Made by a program: the position numbers and the translations under genes
NCBI RefSeq assembly: GCF_947498805.1
Contig: NZ_CANMLT010000007.1
Location: forward strand, 1 to 64,000
Reading direction: 5' to 3'
Source of the DNA: an uncultured Tenacibaculum sp.
GTDB taxonomy: Bacteria > Bacteroidota > Bacteroidia > Flavobacteriales > Flavobacteriaceae
Length of the DNA stretch: 64,000 nt
Shown here: positions 54,378-64,000 of the stretch, piece by piece
Numbering within the stretch: the stretch's first letter is position 1
Layout of the letters: each line of letters begins with the position of its first letter
The notes under the pieces: generated by a model
Seen by the model: only the letters and a program-made list of their open reading frames with translations
Database searches by the model: none
What the model was told of the DNA's origin: nothing

Positions 54378-56456
54378 TTAATTTCCTATTTGATTTAGAG
54401 CAGAAGTGTCTATAGCATTTGGATTAGATGGTGTAATCTCAAAAATAGCATCGTTAAAATCATTATCTCCATTTGGAACATTAATATCTTCAAAAGCAAT
54501 CACAATAGAACTACAAGTTGAATCGTAGAATAAAATACTTTGTTGACGTCCGCTTAAATTATAATCAATATCTGAATGCTGTGTGTAGTATCCGTCAGTA
54601 ATACTTCCATTTCTCCATCCGTTTGCAATCAAGAAGAAACTAACAACTGTACCTTCTTCAAAAGTTCCTAATAAACGCATGGTGTTACCTCTTACAAGCT
54701 GTCCACCAGATCTTTCTGCTGATGCATTTGGGAAAATTACAATCTTATCTACTTGATCTGCGCTAGTTGGTTTGTTTCCTAATTGATAGGTATAATATCC
54801 TAATACATTTTTGTAACCAGCACCTTCATCAATAAAGGTTAAGTTTAATTCTGTTTCTTCTTCAATAACCAAAGTCTTTACGGGGTTGGTAAAATATTCT
54901 GGATGTGCGGTCATTGCATTTTGACGTTCTGGTAATACGTTATTGTAAATATTTGGTAATAGAGTACTACAAATAACTTTGTCATCTTCCATTCCGTCTG
55001 GCTTACCACTGTTATTATAGGTAGTAATTGTTTTGTATTCATCTTTTGTACGTTTTCTTAGAATTTTAAATCCACCACCACCTTTGGCTACAAATACCCA
55101 TTCACCATCGGCAATAATATAATTGGCAGAGGCTCCTTCTTCGGCCATATCCCAATAGAAGATAGGTTCGATATCTCCACCGCCATTGGTAGGGTGCGGA
55201 GAAATTGAGATTCCGTCAGAACCATTGGCTGCATATACATAATCTATATCAGAACTCACTCCGTTCGTATTTCCAACAACTAGCATTAATCCTTTTGATT
55301 CGTTTGAGATTTCTCCATTCGTAACATCAACCAATGCAAGTCCGTCTTTACCTTTAGCAATGTATACCTTGTCTTGATCTACTGGAGAGAACTCCATGGT
55401 AGATTTACCTCTATACGTTTCTAAAACATTTTGATGGAAGATAGAACCGATATCGTAACTGGTTGATTCTAGACTGTTTTTTACATCATCTACTTTGATA
55501 CTTGCATTATCTCCAGTTACTAAACTTACTACTTTAGATCCAAGACTAGTTCCACTTACAGCTACATATTTAGCATCACTATAACTTTCAGAATCCACAG
55601 CTTCAAAAGTGTTTTTGTTAATCATTACAGTACCTCCATGTGTTTTTCCTGAAGTGATATATAAGTAATCATCAGTTATGGCAATTCCATTTGCAGAAGC
55701 TGAAACACCAGATCCTTCTAATACATTCGATAAGTTTTTACGTCTGTAGTTTTCTGAAAATAAACCTCCATTTGCTTCCAATTCGAATAATTGAGCTCCG
55801 TTTTTTGAATCGGACATAGCCAACCATACTTTTAAGTTAGACGATCCGTTTATATAACCTGAAGTAACAGCATTGATATCAGAATTTAAAAAGGTAGCTT
55901 GCGTAATGATTTCAGGAAAATTAGCATTGTTTAAATCAATAATTTCTACAGCACCTAAATGTACATTTCCTTGTTTATGATAACTCACATAAGCTTTGTT
56001 ATCATCCAGAGTAATATGGGTAGCACTCAATGTTTGTCCATTTACAACTAATGGATCAACTTCTGCAACATGTTCCCAATAATACATTTCTTGGGTTCCA
56101 TTTACGGTTGAACTTCCTCTTGCATTTAAACCAGAAACTATGGGAGTAATTGTAGCAGTTCTATTAATGTAAGTTATTCTTTGAGAAAGTTGACTACTGT
56201 TGTTGTTAACTTTAAAAGGTAATTCTTCTACTGCTGCAGTATTGTTTGAAACATTAGATAATTCTGCTTCTGTGGTTGAGCTACAGTTATAAAAGATACC
56301 TACGAGAAGAAGAGGGATAAATTTTAAGTTCTTGAAATTGTTAAAGAAATTGATTTGTTTGATCTTAGATACTAAAAGTATCGTTACTAAGAAGATTAAG
56401 GCTTGTACTATCATACTAATTTTCTTTATGGTTTGAATTATTTTAGGCGCTTTCAT
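54378..56456 (-). CDS. DUF4114 protein with beta-propeller-like region
   Basis: The 692 residues have an odd N-terminus: a transmembrane-like helix (~15-30) followed by a second hydrophobic stretch ending in a lipobox-like VGIFYNC (Cys58). The middle (~130-480) has LVIVD-like repeats (AYVSYHKQGNVHLGAVEIIDL; YIAKGKDGLALVDV; VFVAKGGGGFKIL) suggesting a beta-propeller. The end is a DUF4114 domain (VSFFLIANGWRNGSITDGYY ... IAFEDINVPNGDNDFNDAIFEI), a calcium-binding-like domain of surface proteins. It is the last gene of the surface polysaccharide region. Confidence 0.75.
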   Translation of the reverse strand: MKAPKIIQTIKKISMIVQALIFLVTILLVSKIKQINFFNNFKNLKFIPLLLVGIFYNCSSTTEAELSNVSNNTAAVEELPFKVNNNSSQLSQRITYINRTATITPIVSGLNARGSSTVNGTQEMYYWEHVAEVDPLVVNGQTLSATHITLDDNKAYVSYHKQGNVHLGAVEIIDLNNANFPEIITQATFLNSDINAVTSGYINGSSNLKVWLAMSDSKNGAQLFELEANGGLFSENYRRKNLSNVLEGSGVSASANGIAITDDYLYITSGKTHGGTVMINKNTFEAVDSESYSDAKYVAVSGTSLGSKVVSLVTGDNASIKVDDVKNSLESTSYDIGSIFHQNVLETYRGKSTMEFSPVDQDKVYIAKGKDGLALVDVTNGEISNESKGLMLVVGNTNGVSSDIDYVYAANGSDGISISPHPTNGGGDIEPIFYWDMAEEGASANYIIADGEWVFVAKGGGGFKILRKRTKDEYKTITTYNNSGKPDGMEDDKVICSTLLPNIYNNVLPERQNAMTAHPEYFTNPVKTLVIEEETELNLTFIDEGAGYKNVLGYYTYQLGNKPTSADQVDKIVIFPNASAERSGGQLVRGNTMRLLGTFEEGTVVSFFLIANGWRNGSITDGYYTQHSDIDYNLSGRQQSILFYDSTCSSIVIAFEDINVPNGDNDFNDAIFEITPSNPNAIDTSALNQIGN

Positions 56457-56636: not shown

Positions 56637-57956
56637 TTACAAACCAGCTCTTTTTGCTTGAATAGAAGATTTATACGGATTCCATGGATCATCAAAAGAA
56701 CGCTTAAAGAAAAACTCTTTGTAATATGCTACTGTTCTAATGATTCTTAGGTAGGTTCCTGTATATAGTGTCATTAAAGAAACGTATGGCCATAAATACA
56801 ACTCTTCTTTTCGTCTTTCAGAAAAAATATACATACTAAACATTTGTACATAAGACATAACAAAGTACAAGGTGAAGTTCATGGGGATTACAAATTTTAA
56901 TTGACTTGTATAGTTTACAATAATGTCAATAATATAAATCCACCATAAAATATCTAATACTACATTGTAAAATACATTTTCTGTTAAAGAGAAAAAGTTA
57001 AGCCAATTGAAATTGGCATTTGGAAAGTAAACATCTTTATGTTTTCGAACTCGGAAGCGAATAATAGACTTATCCCAACGCAAGCGCTGTTTGGTTAACA
57101 CTTTAAATTTAGAAGGTGCATTTGTTAAGCATATAGCTTTTGGTTGGAAGTAAATTTTGTATCCCGATTTTCTAATTTTCACAGTGATATCTCCGTCTAA
57201 ACCAGGGCCAATATCCCAACCACCAATACTATCAATAACATCTTTTCTAAAGGCACCAAATGCTCCTGAAATAATTTTATAAATTCCTAGGTACGAAGTA
57301 ACAATTCTACCTACTGAAACCGTCTTTAAATATTCTATAGCTTGAAACTTAGCACACAAGCTTTCTCGATAATTACGAACTTTTACATTTCCTCCAACAG
57401 CACCAATCTTGTCATCTAAATAAAAGGGTATCAAAACTTGTTCTATAGCATCTGAATCAAAAGAGCAATCGGCATCTAAATGAACAATATATTTCCCTTT
57501 ACTATAACGTAATGCTAGATTGGCAGCAGAAGCTTTTCCTCCACGCATTTCGTTTCTAATAAACATATCAATAAGTCCCAATTTTTCTAGGTTCTTTCCT
57601 ATAATTGGAGTATCATCATCAGAACCATCATCGACAATGATTAATTCAAAATTTTTAAAGGTTTGTTCAGCTAAAGACTTGGTGAGTTTGTATAAGTGTT
57701 TTCCTTCATTCTTTCCTGGAATAATCACCGAAACAAAAGGGTTTTCAGTAAATAGCTTACGTTTTGCTTCCTGAAATTTTTGATTTCTTCTTTTTTGAGT
57801 GAAGGAGAAGATTATAGCAATAACATAGTCAATAATAATATAGCGAGTGAATTCAAAAATCACAAAATACCAGAATACTCTTAAGAATTTGTTGAAACCT
57901 ACAACAAACCAGTAGTTAACATATTCAGGTAGTATATTGTGAATGCTTAGGATCAT
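56637..57956 (-). CDS. Processive family-2 glycosyltransferase (membrane polysaccharide synthase)
   Basis: The 439 residues have N-terminal helices, then a GT2 domain: VSVIIPGKNEGKHLYKLTKSL, IIVDDGSDDDT, VHLDADCSFDSDA (DxD), GLDGDITVKIRKSGY (general base region) and KQRLRWDKS (QxxRW), followed by three or four membrane helices. This is the layout of cellulose, hyaluronan, PNAG and alginate synthases. Its ATG overlaps the TackOD1 gene stop by 4 bp (ATGA). It should polymerise and translocate a glycan. Confidence 0.92.
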   Translation of the reverse strand: MILSIHNILPEYVNYWFVVGFNKFLRVFWYFVIFEFTRYIIIDYVIAIIFSFTQKRRNQKFQEAKRKLFTENPFVSVIIPGKNEGKHLYKLTKSLAEQTFKNFELIIVDDGSDDDTPIIGKNLEKLGLIDMFIRNEMRGGKASAANLALRYSKGKYIVHLDADCSFDSDAIEQVLIPFYLDDKIGAVGGNVKVRNYRESLCAKFQAIEYLKTVSVGRIVTSYLGIYKIISGAFGAFRKDVIDSIGGWDIGPGLDGDITVKIRKSGYKIYFQPKAICLTNAPSKFKVLTKQRLRWDKSIIRFRVRKHKDVYFPNANFNWLNFFSLTENVFYNVVLDILWWIYIIDIIVNYTSQLKFVIPMNFTLYFVMSYVQMFSMYIFSERRKEELYLWPYVSLMTLYTGTYLRIIRTVAYYKEFFFKRSFDDPWNPYKSSIQAKRAGL

Positions 57957-59329
57957 AAAATTAGGTATTCATGGAGTGCTTTTTCGGTTGTGATTTTTTG
58001 ATATTGAATTGCTATTTCATTCGTAGTTTGTTGCATATTATCACTCAGTAACTTGTTGAGGTTGTATTGAATGTTTTCTAACCTTTTCAATTGGTCTTCT
58101 TTAGTCTCTGGAAGTAACAAATAATGAATGTCATAGCTCTTAGAGGCTAACATATCAGCATCTTTTAAATAAGATTTGATAATGTTATGAATCTCTTTTG
58201 TTAGTTCATTTTTAACGTCTTGGTTTAACAGTTGCAATCGTTTGTTTTGAACATTTATAGTTACAAAGAAACTAGAACCGTTGGTTGTTTTGATTCGTTG
58301 AATTTCTTGCTTTAAGAGTATTTTAAACAAAGGAATGCTTAAGTTTCCTATGGTTTCTGAGGTGCTTTTTTCAATGGTTTTCGATTGTTTTAACACTTCA
58401 TTTTCTCCTTTTTGGGTAAGTGCATAACTCCCAATTGTTTTTTCTAATAATTCATCTAATTCATGTTCAGTAGAACAGTCTATACAAAGTCCTTTCATAC
58501 TACTATTTTGAAACTCATGATTACAAGTATTACATGAGTAAATCGTTGAAGGTTTGTCATAGTCAATTCCGATATGCCTTAATTGTTTGTCACACTTAGG
58601 ACATTCTAAACCATCGTCTACTTTAAAATCTTTTTCTGGTGCTACATGAGCACATACAAAATGATGCACCATATCATGCGCTTTGATGTCTATAGAATCA
58701 CATTTTGGACAGCACTCTCTAAAGTTGATGTAATTGCTAGTACAGCTTTTACAAACATGGATAAGATCCTCTAGGGTAAAAGAAAGTAACTTTTCTTGTG
58801 TCAATTTATCAAAGGTCTTTAACAAAGACAATATTTCGTGTTGTTTAAACAATAACGAGATAAATGGAAATTCATACCCTATGATACTTTGTCTTGAGGT
58901 AATAGGGGTAATCACCAAATTTCTGGTATAACTATAGGCTAACACTTTGTAATTTAGAAACTCTTCATGCGTGGTTTTTTGTGGAATTTGTAATTGATTG
59001 ATCTTCTTTTTGATTGAAGCAATTCGTTGTACATAAGACCCAATTAAATCTATGGCAACAGGTCCGTCTGTATGGATTTCTACGTTTTTAGGAAATTTAT
59101 GAACAGCGCTTATGAATATAGGTAATAAGGCAATATCTAAATTGTTATTGGTTCTAATTTGATATATGATGTCTTTAGTAAAAGATACAGATGCTGTGTC
59201 AATAATAAATCCATCAAGATATTCAAGTTGCTCATTTTTTAACTCATTGGCATGAGCCACGATGAGCAACGAATATCCCTCGATATGAATCTTTCTGGAG
59301 TTATTATTATATTTTACTAAATTCAACAT
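57953..59329 (-). CDS. TackOD1 zinc-ribbon protein with degenerate GGDEF-like C-terminus
   Basis: The 458 residues have an N-terminal ~110-residue region possibly receiver-like, then a TackOD1 metal-binding domain (~190-310) with four CxxC pairs (CKSCTSN, CCPKCDS, CPKCDKQLRHIGIDYDKP, CNTCNHEF, CIDCS) and MVHHFVCAHVAPEKDF. The C-terminal ~130 residues (VTINVQNKRLQLL ... DADMLASKSYDIHYLLLPET) align in pattern with a GGDEF domain, but the GGDEF loop reads KSYDIHY, so it cannot be an active diguanylate cyclase. It is coupled to the GT2 gene by a 4-bp overlap and 18 bp downstream of the dehydrogenase gene. A regulatory role is inferred. Confidence 0.8.
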   Translation of the reverse strand: MLNLVKYNNNSRKIHIEGYSLLIVAHANELKNEQLEYLDGFIIDTASVSFTKDIIYQIRTNNNLDIALLPIFISAVHKFPKNVEIHTDGPVAIDLIGSYVQRIASIKKKINQLQIPQKTTHEEFLNYKVLAYSYTRNLVITPITSRQSIIGYEFPFISLLFKQHEILSLLKTFDKLTQEKLLSFTLEDLIHVCKSCTSNYINFRECCPKCDSIDIKAHDMVHHFVCAHVAPEKDFKVDDGLECPKCDKQLRHIGIDYDKPSTIYSCNTCNHEFQNSSMKGLCIDCSTEHELDELLEKTIGSYALTQKGENEVLKQSKTIEKSTSETIGNLSIPLFKILLKQEIQRIKTTNGSSFFVTINVQNKRLQLLNQDVKNELTKEIHNIIKSYLKDADMLASKSYDIHYLLLPETKEDQLKRLENIQYNLNKLLSDNMQQTTNEIAIQYQKITTEKALHEYLIL

Positions 59330-59347
59330 TGCGTTTGATGTTTTTAA

Positions 59348-60715
59348 TTATAATGACATATATATGTCTTTAGGAAAACGATCTTTTTTGTCTCCTTTGA
59401 TATCGAAAATAAGCGTATCTGTGGTTCCGTTTTTTAGGTAATCATAGTACGCTAAATGTTCATAGTCGGCATGATCTACAGCTAAAATGATAGCGTCAAA
59501 TTCTTGCGATGTAGTATCAACCACTTCCAATCCGTAACGTCTTTTTACCTCTTTAGGATTGGCCATATAATCTTGAACAATTACGTTGTATCCTCTTTTC
59601 TCTAATTCTAAGCATAGCTCGGCAGTCTTAGAATTTCTTATATCATTTACATTTTCTTTAAAGGTGATTCCTTTTACTAATACCGAAACTCCTTTCTTTA
59701 AAAAGCGTTTTGCGTATAAACGTCTTTCCAACTGTAATGCAATATGATGTGTCATTCCTTCATTAACTTCTCGCACTTGCTCAAGTAGTTTAGGAACATA
59801 CTTGTTTTCTTTGGCTTTTTCTATTAGGTAATAAGGATCCACACCTATACAATGCCCTCCAACTAAACCAGGATAATAGTTGTGGAAGTTCCATTTGGTT
59901 CCAGCAGCAGCTAATACATCTTTTGTATTGATGTCTAGTACACCAAATATTTGAGATAGCTCGTTCATCAATCCGATGTTTACATCTCTTTGAATATTCT
60001 CTACAACTTTAGCAGATTCAGCTACTTTAATTGTTGGAGCTTTATGAACACCTGCTTCTACAACAGTTTCGTATACTTTAGCAATTAAGTCTAGTGTTTC
60101 TTCAGTACTTCCTGAAACAATTTTCTTAATCTTTGTAAAGGTATGTTGTGTGTCTCCTGGGTTAATTCTTTCTGGAGAATATCCTACGGTGAAATCTTCA
60201 TTGAATTTTAATCTAGAAATACGTTCTAAAATTGGTACACAAACTTCTTCTGTGCATCCTGGAAATACCGTAGATTCAAACACTACACAATCTCCTTTTT
60301 TTAGATGTTTTGCAATAGTGGCTGTTGCTGATTTTAACGGAGTTAAATTTGGTTTTTTAAGCTCATTAATTGGAGTAGGAACAGCTACAATGTAAAACTT
60401 AGCATCTTTTAAGATATTTTCATCCACTGTAAATGCAATGTCTTTGTTTTCAAACTCAGCACTACTAAGTTCATTACAAGGATCTTTATGCTGCATCAGT
60501 TGCATTACTTTTTCTGCATTGACGTCAAAACCAACTACTTTAAATTTAGAGGCCATGTGAACGGCTAGTGGTAAGCCCACATAACCTAAACCTACAACGG
60601 CAACGTTCTCTTTTTTGTTTAATAACTTATTAAATAACTGATTCTTTTTATATGCTAATTTTGGAAACTGATTTGTTTTTAAATTGTCTTTTTTAAACTT
60701 TCTAACGGTACTCAT
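59348..60715 (-). CDS. Nucleotide-sugar dehydrogenase (UDP-sugar uronic acid forming)
   Basis: The 455 residues carry the NAD-binding VAVVGLGYVGLPLAVHMA, FESTVFPGCTEEVCVPILE and SPERINPGD. The catalytic Cys is in YYPGLVGGHCIGVDPYYL, and KGITFKENVNDIRNSK is typical of UDP-ManNAc/UDP-GalNAc-type dehydrogenases (WecC/TviB class). It makes the activated uronic acid. It is first in the operon with the TackOD1 and GT2 genes. The sugar cannot be fixed from sequence. Confidence 0.93.
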   Translation of the reverse strand: MSTVRKFKKDNLKTNQFPKLAYKKNQLFNKLLNKKENVAVVGLGYVGLPLAVHMASKFKVVGFDVNAEKVMQLMQHKDPCNELSSAEFENKDIAFTVDENILKDAKFYIVAVPTPINELKKPNLTPLKSATATIAKHLKKGDCVVFESTVFPGCTEEVCVPILERISRLKFNEDFTVGYSPERINPGDTQHTFTKIKKIVSGSTEETLDLIAKVYETVVEAGVHKAPTIKVAESAKVVENIQRDVNIGLMNELSQIFGVLDINTKDVLAAAGTKWNFHNYYPGLVGGHCIGVDPYYLIEKAKENKYVPKLLEQVREVNEGMTHHIALQLERRLYAKRFLKKGVSVLVKGITFKENVNDIRNSKTAELCLELEKRGYNVIVQDYMANPKEVKRRYGLEVVDTTSQEFDAIILAVDHADYEHLAYYDYLKNGTTDTLIFDIKGDKKDRFPKDIYMSL

Positions 60716-60854: not shown

Positions 60855-60884
60855 TAAAAAAGCCTTAAGAACACTGCTTAAGGC
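60855..60884 (-). terminator. Terminator of the MFP/TolC operon
   Basis: AGCCTTAAG and CTTAAGGCT form a 9-bp stem with a 7-nt loop, followed on the minus strand by six T residues. Confidence 0.8.
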
Positions 60885-60907
60885 TAATTATTATAAATGA
60901 AATTGGT

Positions 60908-61927
60908 TTAATACTTCGGAACTTTAACTTTGAGGTTTAGTTTATAATATTTACCCCATTCCGGGATTTCTTCTTTATTCATAGGAATGATTTCCGCAAG
61001 AATATTTCGTTCGGTAGGTTCGTATTTCTTTTGAAACTCTGTAGGTGCTTTATAAGTTGAAATATAAAGTTTATTAATAATACCTTTCGATAAACTTTTA
61101 TCTGGAAATTCTACTAAGACAATACTTCCTTCTTTTACCTTGGCAATATCTTTAAGATTGAAATAGGCTTTGATAAATACCGTTTCAACATTGTGAATGG
61201 TCATTACATTTTCAGTTTTATAACAAGACTCTTCGCTATTTTTGGAAATCTGACCAATAACACCTTTAATAGGGGAGATGTAGGTGTTTTGATAATTGTT
61301 ATTTCCTCCATATGAAATCCCTTTGTTATTAATGGTATTCTTTTTTTGAAGTGATAATAGGTAAATTTCACTTTGTAACAATTTAATTTTCGATTGTAAT
61401 TGTAGTTTTTGCATTACAATTTCATCTAGTTTTGTTTTTGTATATACATCCAGTAACACCAGTTTTGTTACTTGTTTTTCGCGTTCTAGAAGGATGTTAT
61501 ACTGGTCTTTTAAATGTTTTAACTGTATGTTTTTTAAATAGCGTTCTCTTAAAATTTCTTGTAAGTTATCATAGTTCTTTTCTCTTTTATCGAAATTTTT
61601 GAGTACAATTGAAGCATCGCTATCAAAATCATTTTGAAAATAGTTAAATAAAGAATCACCAATTTCAACGGTTTGTCCTTCATTTATAAATATTTCTTTT
61701 ACACGAATGTCATTGGTAAAATTTACATCTACTTTCTCCATTAGCATTTGTCCATTCCCATAGGTCCATTTAGTTTTTTTATAAGCAAAACTTACGAGCC
61801 AAAAGAACAGTCCAATAATGATGATGAAATAAATAATTCTATCAAAATTGAGTTTTTTCTTTTTAAGTTTAGGTTCTTTTAGGGTTCTAATAATTGCTTT
61901 GCCCTTTTTGTATGTGAATTTTTTCAT
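60908..61927 (-). CDS. HlyD-like membrane fusion protein
   Basis: The 339 residues have a basic cytoplasmic N-terminus, one transmembrane helix (~30-48), a half lipoyl segment (VKEIFINEGQTVEIGDSLFNY), a coiled-coil hairpin (~90-200) and a beta-barrel region (YISPIKGVIGQISKNSEE ... KEGSIVLVEFPDKSLSKGIINKLYIS). This matches HlyD-like periplasmic adaptors. It overlaps the TolC-like gene by 4 bp. Location beside a GT2 synthase suggests an Alg44-like role in glycan export, but no ABC transporter is nearby. Confidence 0.85.
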   Translation of the reverse strand: MKKFTYKKGKAIIRTLKEPKLKKKKLNFDRIIYFIIIIGLFFWLVSFAYKKTKWTYGNGQMLMEKVDVNFTNDIRVKEIFINEGQTVEIGDSLFNYFQNDFDSDASIVLKNFDKREKNYDNLQEILRERYLKNIQLKHLKDQYNILLEREKQVTKLVLLDVYTKTKLDEIVMQKLQLQSKIKLLQSEIYLLSLQKKNTINNKGISYGGNNNYQNTYISPIKGVIGQISKNSEESCYKTENVMTIHNVETVFIKAYFNLKDIAKVKEGSIVLVEFPDKSLSKGIINKLYISTYKAPTEFQKKYEPTERNILAEIIPMNKEEIPEWGKYYKLNLKVKVPKY

Positions 61928-63450
61928 AAGGCTAATTGTTTAAGTTCATTTTGAATTACCTGTACAATTGTTTTGGCAGAAGGATGCTTTACAATTTTAA
62001 ACGCTGCTTTCTTTTTTCTTAAGAATTGCTGAATTTTTATATCATTATTTAAAACAGTGATACTGAATTTTTTTTGAGTCTTTATAAATTCATATTGAAA
62101 ATCTATGCTATATAAATCGTTTTGAGTGAGTAGCAAAGGTTCTTTGTTTTCGTTCTCTTCAAAGGTATATGGCACTAAAATTTCGTGTAAATTCTCTTTT
62201 GGGTACAATTCGAAAAGTTGCGATATAGCTGTATATAATTGCCTTTTCAATTGCATACAGTTTTCAAGAATTTTGAATTTTTCTTCGGTTAACTCTAATA
62301 TTAAAAGTCCAGTTTTATAACTGTTGTATTCTTCCTTTAATAGATCAAATACACGTATGCGCTCTTCAACTACTTTCCAGTTTTTGTACTGGTTCTGAAA
62401 ATCTTTAAGAATTTCATTATAAGAATTCATATGAGTGATAAGCCTATTATATTGTCCAACATTTTTATCTCTTTCTTGAGCAGCTAAGAGTTGTAATTTT
62501 GTCTTAACAATGTCTTTTCTTTTGTTAAAACGGATAGGAGCTTTAAAGCGAATTCCTACTGCAGGAAAATATTGATTTCGAGTTACGGAATGATTAAAAT
62601 TCTGATTTATATAAACCGATAAACTTAAATCATTCACCGCTTTGTGGTTTAGCTGAATGTTTTCTTTTAAATATTGGTTATTGTAAACCGCTGAATTAAT
62701 TGAAATACTATCTAGTTGTATACTAAAAACAGGTAACTCTTGAATGATATTGGCATTACTAGAAATACTGTCTTTTAGTAGTTTGTTCTTCTTTGTTATT
62801 AGCGCTAGTTGATTCTTTAAAATGTGAATTTGATTCCCTACTTCGATAATGCGTTCTCTTTTAATAAGACTTTGTGCATATAGTTTGTTTAAAAAATCGA
62901 AATACTCGTTTTCAAATTTTAAAAATGTAGAAAATAAAGAGATGGTTTCTTTATTAGAAATATAGCTGTAATCTATTCTAAATTGACGTCTCCAGATTTG
63001 TTTTTTTAAACGATTATCCTGAAGTTTTAAATGTTCAATTTCATTATTTTTTTGTTGAGATCTTGTTCGGTTATGAATAAAACCATTTTTAAGAATGTTC
63101 CATTCTAATTCTGTTCTAAATCTAAATTTATTAAAAGCATTTTGTTCTTCGTCAAAGGCATCTCTGAAGTTATAATTTGCAGTTGCTTTAAAAACCAAAC
63201 CAATGTCTTGTTTAAACTGTATAGCTTCATATTCTTTTAATTTAATTTCATGCTGATTCGGAGCGTTTTTACTAGGAGTAGAAAACTCAAAAGGAAAAAG
63301 AACCAGATTAGTAGTGTTCGGAAACTGTTGTTCTTTTGAAGTTTTTAAATGTAAATCATCTGCATAACGAAGAAGCTTGTTAGATATCTGTGCATGTGTA
63401 TATCTAACAAAAAAAAGAAAGCAAACAATATGTATTAAAGATAACTTCAC
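61924..63450 (-). CDS. TolC-like outer membrane protein
   Basis: The 508 residues have a signal peptide (LIHIVCFLFFVRYTHAQ) and long, heptad-rich helices in two halves, with NGFIHNRTRSQQKNNEIEHL and YNRLITHMNSYNEILKDFQNQYKNWKVVEERIRVFDLLKEEYNSYKTGLLIL as the TolC-type coiled coil. The C-terminal ~80 residues are unusual and basic (FLRKKKAAFKIVKHPSAKTI). The start is GTG at 63450. It is coupled to the membrane fusion gene by 4 bp, so the two form an envelope-spanning pair. Confidence 0.75.
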   Translation of the reverse strand: MKLSLIHIVCFLFFVRYTHAQISNKLLRYADDLHLKTSKEQQFPNTTNLVLFPFEFSTPSKNAPNQHEIKLKEYEAIQFKQDIGLVFKATANYNFRDAFDEEQNAFNKFRFRTELEWNILKNGFIHNRTRSQQKNNEIEHLKLQDNRLKKQIWRRQFRIDYSYISNKETISLFSTFLKFENEYFDFLNKLYAQSLIKRERIIEVGNQIHILKNQLALITKKNKLLKDSISSNANIIQELPVFSIQLDSISINSAVYNNQYLKENIQLNHKAVNDLSLSVYINQNFNHSVTRNQYFPAVGIRFKAPIRFNKRKDIVKTKLQLLAAQERDKNVGQYNRLITHMNSYNEILKDFQNQYKNWKVVEERIRVFDLLKEEYNSYKTGLLILELTEEKFKILENCMQLKRQLYTAISQLFELYPKENLHEILVPYTFEENENKEPLLLTQNDLYSIDFQYEFIKTQKKFSITVLNNDIKIQQFLRKKKAAFKIVKHPSAKTIVQVIQNELKQLAL

Positions 63451-63537: not shown

Positions 63538-64000
63538 TTAAAGTAAATTCAAACGTTTTATCAATTCACTCTTATTAGCTCTACTAACAGGAATGATATC
63601 TTGCTTGATAAGTACGCTATTATCTTCTATATCAACAATTTTTTGAGTATTAATGATATAAGAACGGTGTACTTTTAAGAACGTTGTTTTTGGTAGTTTT
63701 TCTTCAACTTTTTTTAAGGTAGAATGTACAATATGGTTTTGCGTCTCTGTTTTAATTCTAACATAATCCCCTTTTGCTTCAATTACATAAATATCTGGGA
63801 TATTTATTTTAACCAACCTTCTATCTATATTAACATATAAATCGTTGGTAGTATTTTCAGTGTTAGAACTTATTTCTTTTGTACCGTTTATTTGTACTTT
63901 ATCTAATTTATGAAGTGCTTTTTCAAACCTTTCTTTCGTAATTGGCTTTACTAAATAATCAACCACACAATCATACTCAAAAGCATCTAAAGCAAAATTT
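63538..64000 (-). CDS. LytTR-family response regulator, 5'-truncated by the window edge
   Basis: The frame stays open to base 64000, so the protein begins outside the window; the track start (GTG 63966) is internal. The visible part has the end of a receiver domain (ALDAFEYDCVVDYLVKPITKERFEKAL) and a full LytTR DNA-binding domain (IYVIEAKGDYVRIKTETQNHIVHSTLKKVEEKLPKTTFLKVHRSYIINTQKIVDIEDNSVLIKQDIIPVSR). It probably regulates the adjacent surface polysaccharide or efflux genes. Confidence 0.93.
   Translation of the reverse strand, partial: NFALDAFEYDCVVDYLVKPITKERFEKALHKLDKVQINGTKEISSNTENTTNDLYVNIDRRLVKINIPDIYVIEAKGDYVRIKTETQNHIVHSTLKKVEEKLPKTTFLKVHRSYIINTQKIVDIEDNSVLIKQDIIPVSRANKSELIKRLNLL

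Follow-up and report, generated by a model that had tools for sequence, protein, structure and literature searches.

Which function does a TackOD1 zinc-ribbon protein with a degenerate GGDEF domain have, when its gene lies between those of a nucleotide-sugar dehydrogenase and a family 2 glycosyltransferase (GT2)? The question is raised by the window, a stretch of 64,000 nucleotides (positions 1-64,000 of contig NZ_CANMLT010000007.1, assembly GCF_947498805.1, C7 in our locus labels) from an uncultured Tenacibaculum sp., where the three genes occupy 56637-60715 on the minus strand. In archaea, TackOD1 was reported as an output domain whose function was obscure, and it was noted in some bacteria (PMC5847659); this was the only paper naming TackOD1 in our literature search, which found no earlier description of its coupling to a synthase. 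Our analysis suggests that the locus probably encodes a synthase-dependent exopolysaccharide exporter, with the TackOD1 protein acting as an MxdA/PelD-like partner of the synthase that is independent of cyclic di-GMP (c-di-GMP) and takes its input from a protein or phosphorelay.

TackOD1 is uncommon, being over the cut-off in 7/301 genomes of the family and 12/396 genomes sampled from the phylum. In bacteria it was followed by GT2 on the same strand, with a gap of -26 to +28 bp, at all 33 loci measured. Two further loci (Aeromonas and a second Photobacterium) bring the adjacent, co-directional pairs to 35/35; a lack of conservation beside GT2 genes in relatives would have counted against the original prediction. 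The pair was detected in Bacteroidota, Gammaproteobacteria and Alphaproteobacteria, and the TackOD1-GT2-HlyD order is also carried on plasmids of Plesiomonas, Rhodobacteraceae, Phyllobacterium and Aminobacter. No relatives were found on viral contigs. The exceptions are the halobacterial TackOD1 proteins and a partial, unannotated Microvirga match, which are not beside GT2. Pairwise distances of TackOD1 and GT2 are correlated (r=0.80, reached by 0/2000 permutations), with a contribution from shared phylogeny. In the TackOD1-domain tree the Bacteroidota proteins fall together except for two f9 sequences (support 0.93), and those of Gammaproteobacteria form a group that includes one Rhodobacteraceae sequence (support 1.0). 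In one genus among the order-level relatives, five proteins of 317-318 aa end at TackOD1 and have no GGDEF part, so that TackOD1 is the constant element and the GGDEF part optional. The three-gene order proposed previously was conserved for the invariant TackOD1-GT2 pair and not for the dehydrogenase, which is optional, and the cluster is larger than three genes.

The TackOD1 protein consists of an N-terminal domain (residues ~1-118), the TackOD1 zinc ribbons (120-304) and the degenerate GGDEF part (~330-447). The PF18551 match to residues 120-304 is strong (Pfam; 173.6 bits vs the cut-off of 32, E 4.3e-51), and the TackOD1 motif set of five CxxC and one HxxC is complete: the pairs C193/196, 207/210, 243/246, 266/269 and 282/285 together with H223xxC226 are invariant in 23 aligned members. 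A single-sequence search detected no relative in PDB. The N-terminal domain is homologous to a separate protein of ~110 aa, encoded just upstream in the receiver clade, the Bacteroidota relatives with a fused receiver domain (hhalign 98.6%); this stand-alone homologue was seen at L052:9947-10276, L058:10646-11005 and four more loci. By eye the N-terminal domain suggested a pseudo-receiver, an assignment dropped after the comparison with the receiver clade (hhalign 0.4%).

The GGDEF-like patterning of the C-terminus, noted originally from the letters of one protein, was upheld by profile comparison. Pfam GGDEF does not match the window protein alone. The profile of 23 relatives matches the receiver-GGDEF cyclase DgcR (6zxm) with E 5e-7 at profile positions 324-429; the profile of the window's subclade has the same top match, but only at E=0.048, so the single protein of the window would not have proved GGDEF descent. 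The receiver-bearing subclade has sub-threshold Pfam GGDEF matches (best 0.0049), and its C-termini are homologous to those of the window's subclade, the other of these two Bacteroidota clades (hhalign 97.6%, 3e-12). The decisive evidence that the C-terminus is GGDEF-derived would be the gammaproteobacterial members, which pass the Pfam GGDEF cut-off (Plesiomonas, Aeromonas, Photobacterium; 1.4e-10, 1.6e-8, 1e-7). The signature position aligns with SYDIH within KSYDIHY of the window protein, the place where the loop had been said to be lost, and GG(D/E)EF is absent from 33/33 aligned C-termini, including the gammaproteobacterial ones. Judged by these motifs, the loss of diguanylate cyclase activity is clear, as was supposed for a cyclase-dead domain.

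The c-di-GMP-binding I-site RxxD is present as RDTD in 4/4 gammaproteobacterial proteins, is intact in only 2/22 Bacteroidota proteins and lost in 20/22; the window protein has KDAD at this position. In the window's own genome no GGDEF domain and no EAL domain were found. Among 23 other TackOD1 genomes no true GGDEF was found, the sole match being below the cut-off and representing the TackOD1 protein itself. The species of the window appears to be without the usual second messenger c-di-GMP.

The coordinates of the three genes, the 18-bp gap between the dehydrogenase and TackOD1 genes and the 4-bp overlap of TackOD1 and GT2 were confirmed as originally given. With their neighbours, the genes are arranged as follows.

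54378..56456, minus strand: DUF4114 surface protein (PF13448, 6.7e-12)
56637..57956, minus strand: membrane GT2 polysaccharide synthase, QRLRW, PgaC/IcaA-like (Glycos_transf_2, 5.5e-26)
57953..59329, minus strand: TackOD1 regulator, 458 aa (PF18551, 4.3e-51)
59348..60715, minus strand: nucleotide-sugar dehydrogenase, nearest to the UDP-GlcNAc C6 dehydrogenase TviB (TIGR03026 over cut-off)
60861..60885, minus strand: intrinsic-terminator-like hairpin, a 9-bp stem then a T run (consensus match only)
60908..61927, minus strand: HlyD-family periplasmic adaptor (HlyD_3, 9.5e-5, just above cut-off)
61924..63450, minus strand: TolC-like outer-membrane protein, assigned via relatives (no direct Pfam match)
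63538..63999, minus strand: LytTR response regulator, truncated at the window edge (LytTR, 6.9e-22)

The description as three genes is too narrow, since the invariant unit is the pair, and the HlyD protein, the TolC-like protein and the regulatory relay are part of the cluster. The original prediction had not noticed the genes for tripartite export, the resemblance to MxdABC, the relatives with a fused receiver or the relay with H-NOX past the window edge. The dehydrogenase, TackOD1 and GT2 genes may begin a transcript of their own, because the hairpin, located between the HlyD and dehydrogenase genes, precedes the dehydrogenase. A second full cluster, TolC-HlyD-dehydrogenase-TackOD1-GT2-DUF4114, is present on contig C2 of the same genome (L042:5267-13998, G000).

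The GT2 of the window carries the DDGSDDD, DAD and QRLRW motifs, and QxxRW is kept in 33/33 aligned GT2 sequences; with QxxRW and the catalytic aspartates it is predicted to be a processive synthase. Its PgaC_IcaA match (1.7e-50) is below the equivalog cut-off. The dehydrogenase has the UDP-sugar dehydrogenase domains (Pfam) and passes TIGR03026, and its TviB match (5e-124) is likewise below the equivalog cut-off. The HlyD-like gene is present in the cluster at nearly all loci and the TolC-like protein is beside the pair in Bacteroidota; 7/20 proteins in this slot match OEP (best 2e-11). A DUF4114 protein is encoded nearby at about half the loci from Bacteroidota; that of the window (54378-56456) is likely a lipoprotein and may bind the polymer or belong to the matrix. 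In the receiver clade, the outer-membrane proteins are ~700 aa long (L052:11831-14026, L057:5541-7670). Two of them have a weak GH18-like C-terminal region and that of L056 is GH30-like, all below cut-offs, which hints that a glycosidase-like domain is built in and that the polymer is made of amino sugars.

A receiver domain is fused at the N-terminus of TackOD1 proteins in six Bacteroidota relatives, one of which (L060) has Asn at the phospho-acceptor position; two alphaproteobacterial relatives also have a fused receiver. Beyond the window edge on C7 we detected an Hpt gene (named by the relatives' position and similarity; no Pfam match), a PAS-histidine kinase, H-NOX (HNOB 2.5e-40) and a stand-alone CheY-like receiver gene. 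The resulting array, receiver-HNOX-histidine kinase-Hpt-LytTR, is directly upstream of the window's cluster, lies before or next to the cluster in several relatives and recurs in the window's family as a relay of five genes (L092-L102). In another family, histidine kinase-receiver-Hpt-LytTR without H-NOX is located at the cluster. H-NOX is present in 105/301 genomes of the window's family, so the relay is not specific to TackOD1. H-NOX as a TackOD1-specific partner was rejected, the relay often occurring in family members that have no TackOD1; where the TackOD1 cluster is missing, it is followed by DUF4114-like or ~870-aa proteins.

From these data the following mechanism can be proposed. GT2 would make the polymer and pass it across the inner membrane, the HlyD and TolC-like proteins would carry it over the periplasm and outer membrane, and the dehydrogenase would supply an acidic (amino-)sugar precursor. 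GT2 would have the TackOD1 protein as its dedicated cytosolic partner; the zinc ribbons, the constant part, would probably touch the synthase, and the GGDEF-derived tail would serve as a non-catalytic regulatory domain whose RxxD is kept in gammaproteobacteria and mostly lost in Bacteroidota. In this genome, which has no GGDEF or EAL proteins, the on/off signal would most likely come by protein contact; the best candidate would be a phospho-receiver, since this domain is fused in the sister clade and a stand-alone CheY-like gene is near the cluster. Transcription is probably set by the adjoining H-NOX-kinase-Hpt-LytTR relay, possibly in response to a gas.

Several observations weigh against this proposal. 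The relay was found in 11/11 sampled H-NOX loci of family members without the TackOD1 cluster, because of which its link to the cluster may be transcriptional only. No relay adjoins the paralogous C2 cluster (C2:418338, 66% identity), and in other families most genomes with TackOD1 are without H-NOX. AlphaFold models of the full protein and of the C-terminal part, from two-sequence input, reached a predicted local distance difference test score (pLDDT) of 32 and 46; a fold search with the low-confidence C-terminal model gave GGDEF structures among the top matches, none significant, and was not used as proof. The homology of the window protein to MxdA is inferred from layout only. A constitutive role was also weighed, in which the C-terminal part is a mere structural remnant (dimerisation/stability), TackOD1 is an assembly factor without signal input and control is transcriptional via the LytTR relay. 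The location of this relay directly upstream, and the genus that dropped the C-terminal part entirely yet keeps TackOD1-GT2, agree with it. We consider it rather unlikely, since different phyla have kept the domain although its catalysis was lost, and receiver domains were gained more than once, pointing to signal input.

The original prediction suggested a nucleotide- or protein-binding switch for the synthase. Its protein side, given the analogy to MxdA and PelD, is the reading we favour, while the loss of RxxD is against nucleotide binding. The degenerate GGDEF could nevertheless bind a nucleotide (GTP, imported c-di-GMP or another cyclic nucleotide) and switch the synthase as PelD does, because c-di-GMP binding is known for degenerate GGDEF receptors beside synthases (PelD, PMC7112168) and the gammaproteobacterial relatives retain RxxD; its disappearance from 20/22 Bacteroidota proteins, a genome without GGDEF or EAL and the missing signature loop, which holds the nucleotide in cyclases, make this improbable for the window protein. 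An action of the zinc ribbons on transcription or RNA instead of the synthase would fit archaeal TackOD1 with receiver and winged-helix domains (PMC5847659) and the frequent binding of nucleic acid by zinc ribbons, and appears very improbable given the invariably tight coupling of the TackOD1 and GT2 genes in bacteria and 23 members in which no DNA-binding domain was found. The switch operated through protein contact remains our preferred explanation. Its evolutionary extension, that in Bacteroidota a c-di-GMP receptor of the synthase was turned into a c-di-GMP-independent phospho-receiver/gas-sensing switch, with TackOD1 as an ancient gating domain, the GGDEF ligand lost and export gated by the H-NOX phosphorelay, is possible and on balance doubtful.

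TackOD1 is a domain without assigned function, and its constant coupling to GT2 across bacterial phyla offers a testable one. Should the proposal hold, the form found in Bacteroidota would illustrate the control of a matrix-polysaccharide synthase where c-di-GMP is absent. The relatives would then offer a series from nature, in which the I-site is retained or lost, a receiver is added or GGDEF is deleted, suited to tracing how a second-messenger receptor is rewired.

Among known systems, the PelD protein is similar in having a degenerate GGDEF adjoining the synthase, where c-di-GMP bound at the I-site exerts post-translational control (PMC7112168). PelD differs in its GAF domain and intact I-site, and no TackOD1 is reported in it; streptococci without c-di-GMP lost the GGDEF domain of PelD, whereas most Bacteroidota here retain theirs. 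The GT2-HlyD-TolC layout was proposed as a tripartite exporter for cyanobacterial cellulose (XcsAB-TolC, PMC12430437), resembling the GT2 synthase, HlyD-like adaptor and TolC-like protein of our cluster. In that system, however, PilZ is on the synthase in place of a TackOD1 partner, the genes are scattered in T. vulcanus and the product is cellulose, vs the PgaC-like product predicted here. The archaeal response regulators share the same zinc ribbons (5 CxxC and HxxC), which are often combined with a receiver (PMC5847659), but their halobacterial examples do not adjoin GT2.

The closest characterised counterpart, as judged from layout, would be MxdABCD of Shewanella oneidensis. The degenerate-GGDEF protein MxdA is encoded before MxdB (GT2) and MxdC (efflux-like) and is itself required for aggregation (PMC7666153; PMC3691769; PMC11395469; PMC3409153); it binds c-di-GMP and CheY3 (PMC7666153; PMC11395469), and the Mxd system is required for aggregation and biofilm structure (PMC7666153, PMC3691769). 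The MxdABC-type order, a degenerate-GGDEF gene and then GT2, with a HlyD-like adaptor, was found here as well, and the partner of MxdA is a CheY-type receiver. MxdA differs in binding c-di-GMP in an organism with cyclases, in contrast to the window's genome, which has no cyclases and where RxxD is lost. A further difference is that the window's locus also brings together genes for the dehydrogenase, the TolC-like protein and the H-NOX relay. Taken together, these comparisons suggest that the system is a variant of the known MxdABC/PelD-like control of synthase-dependent polysaccharide.

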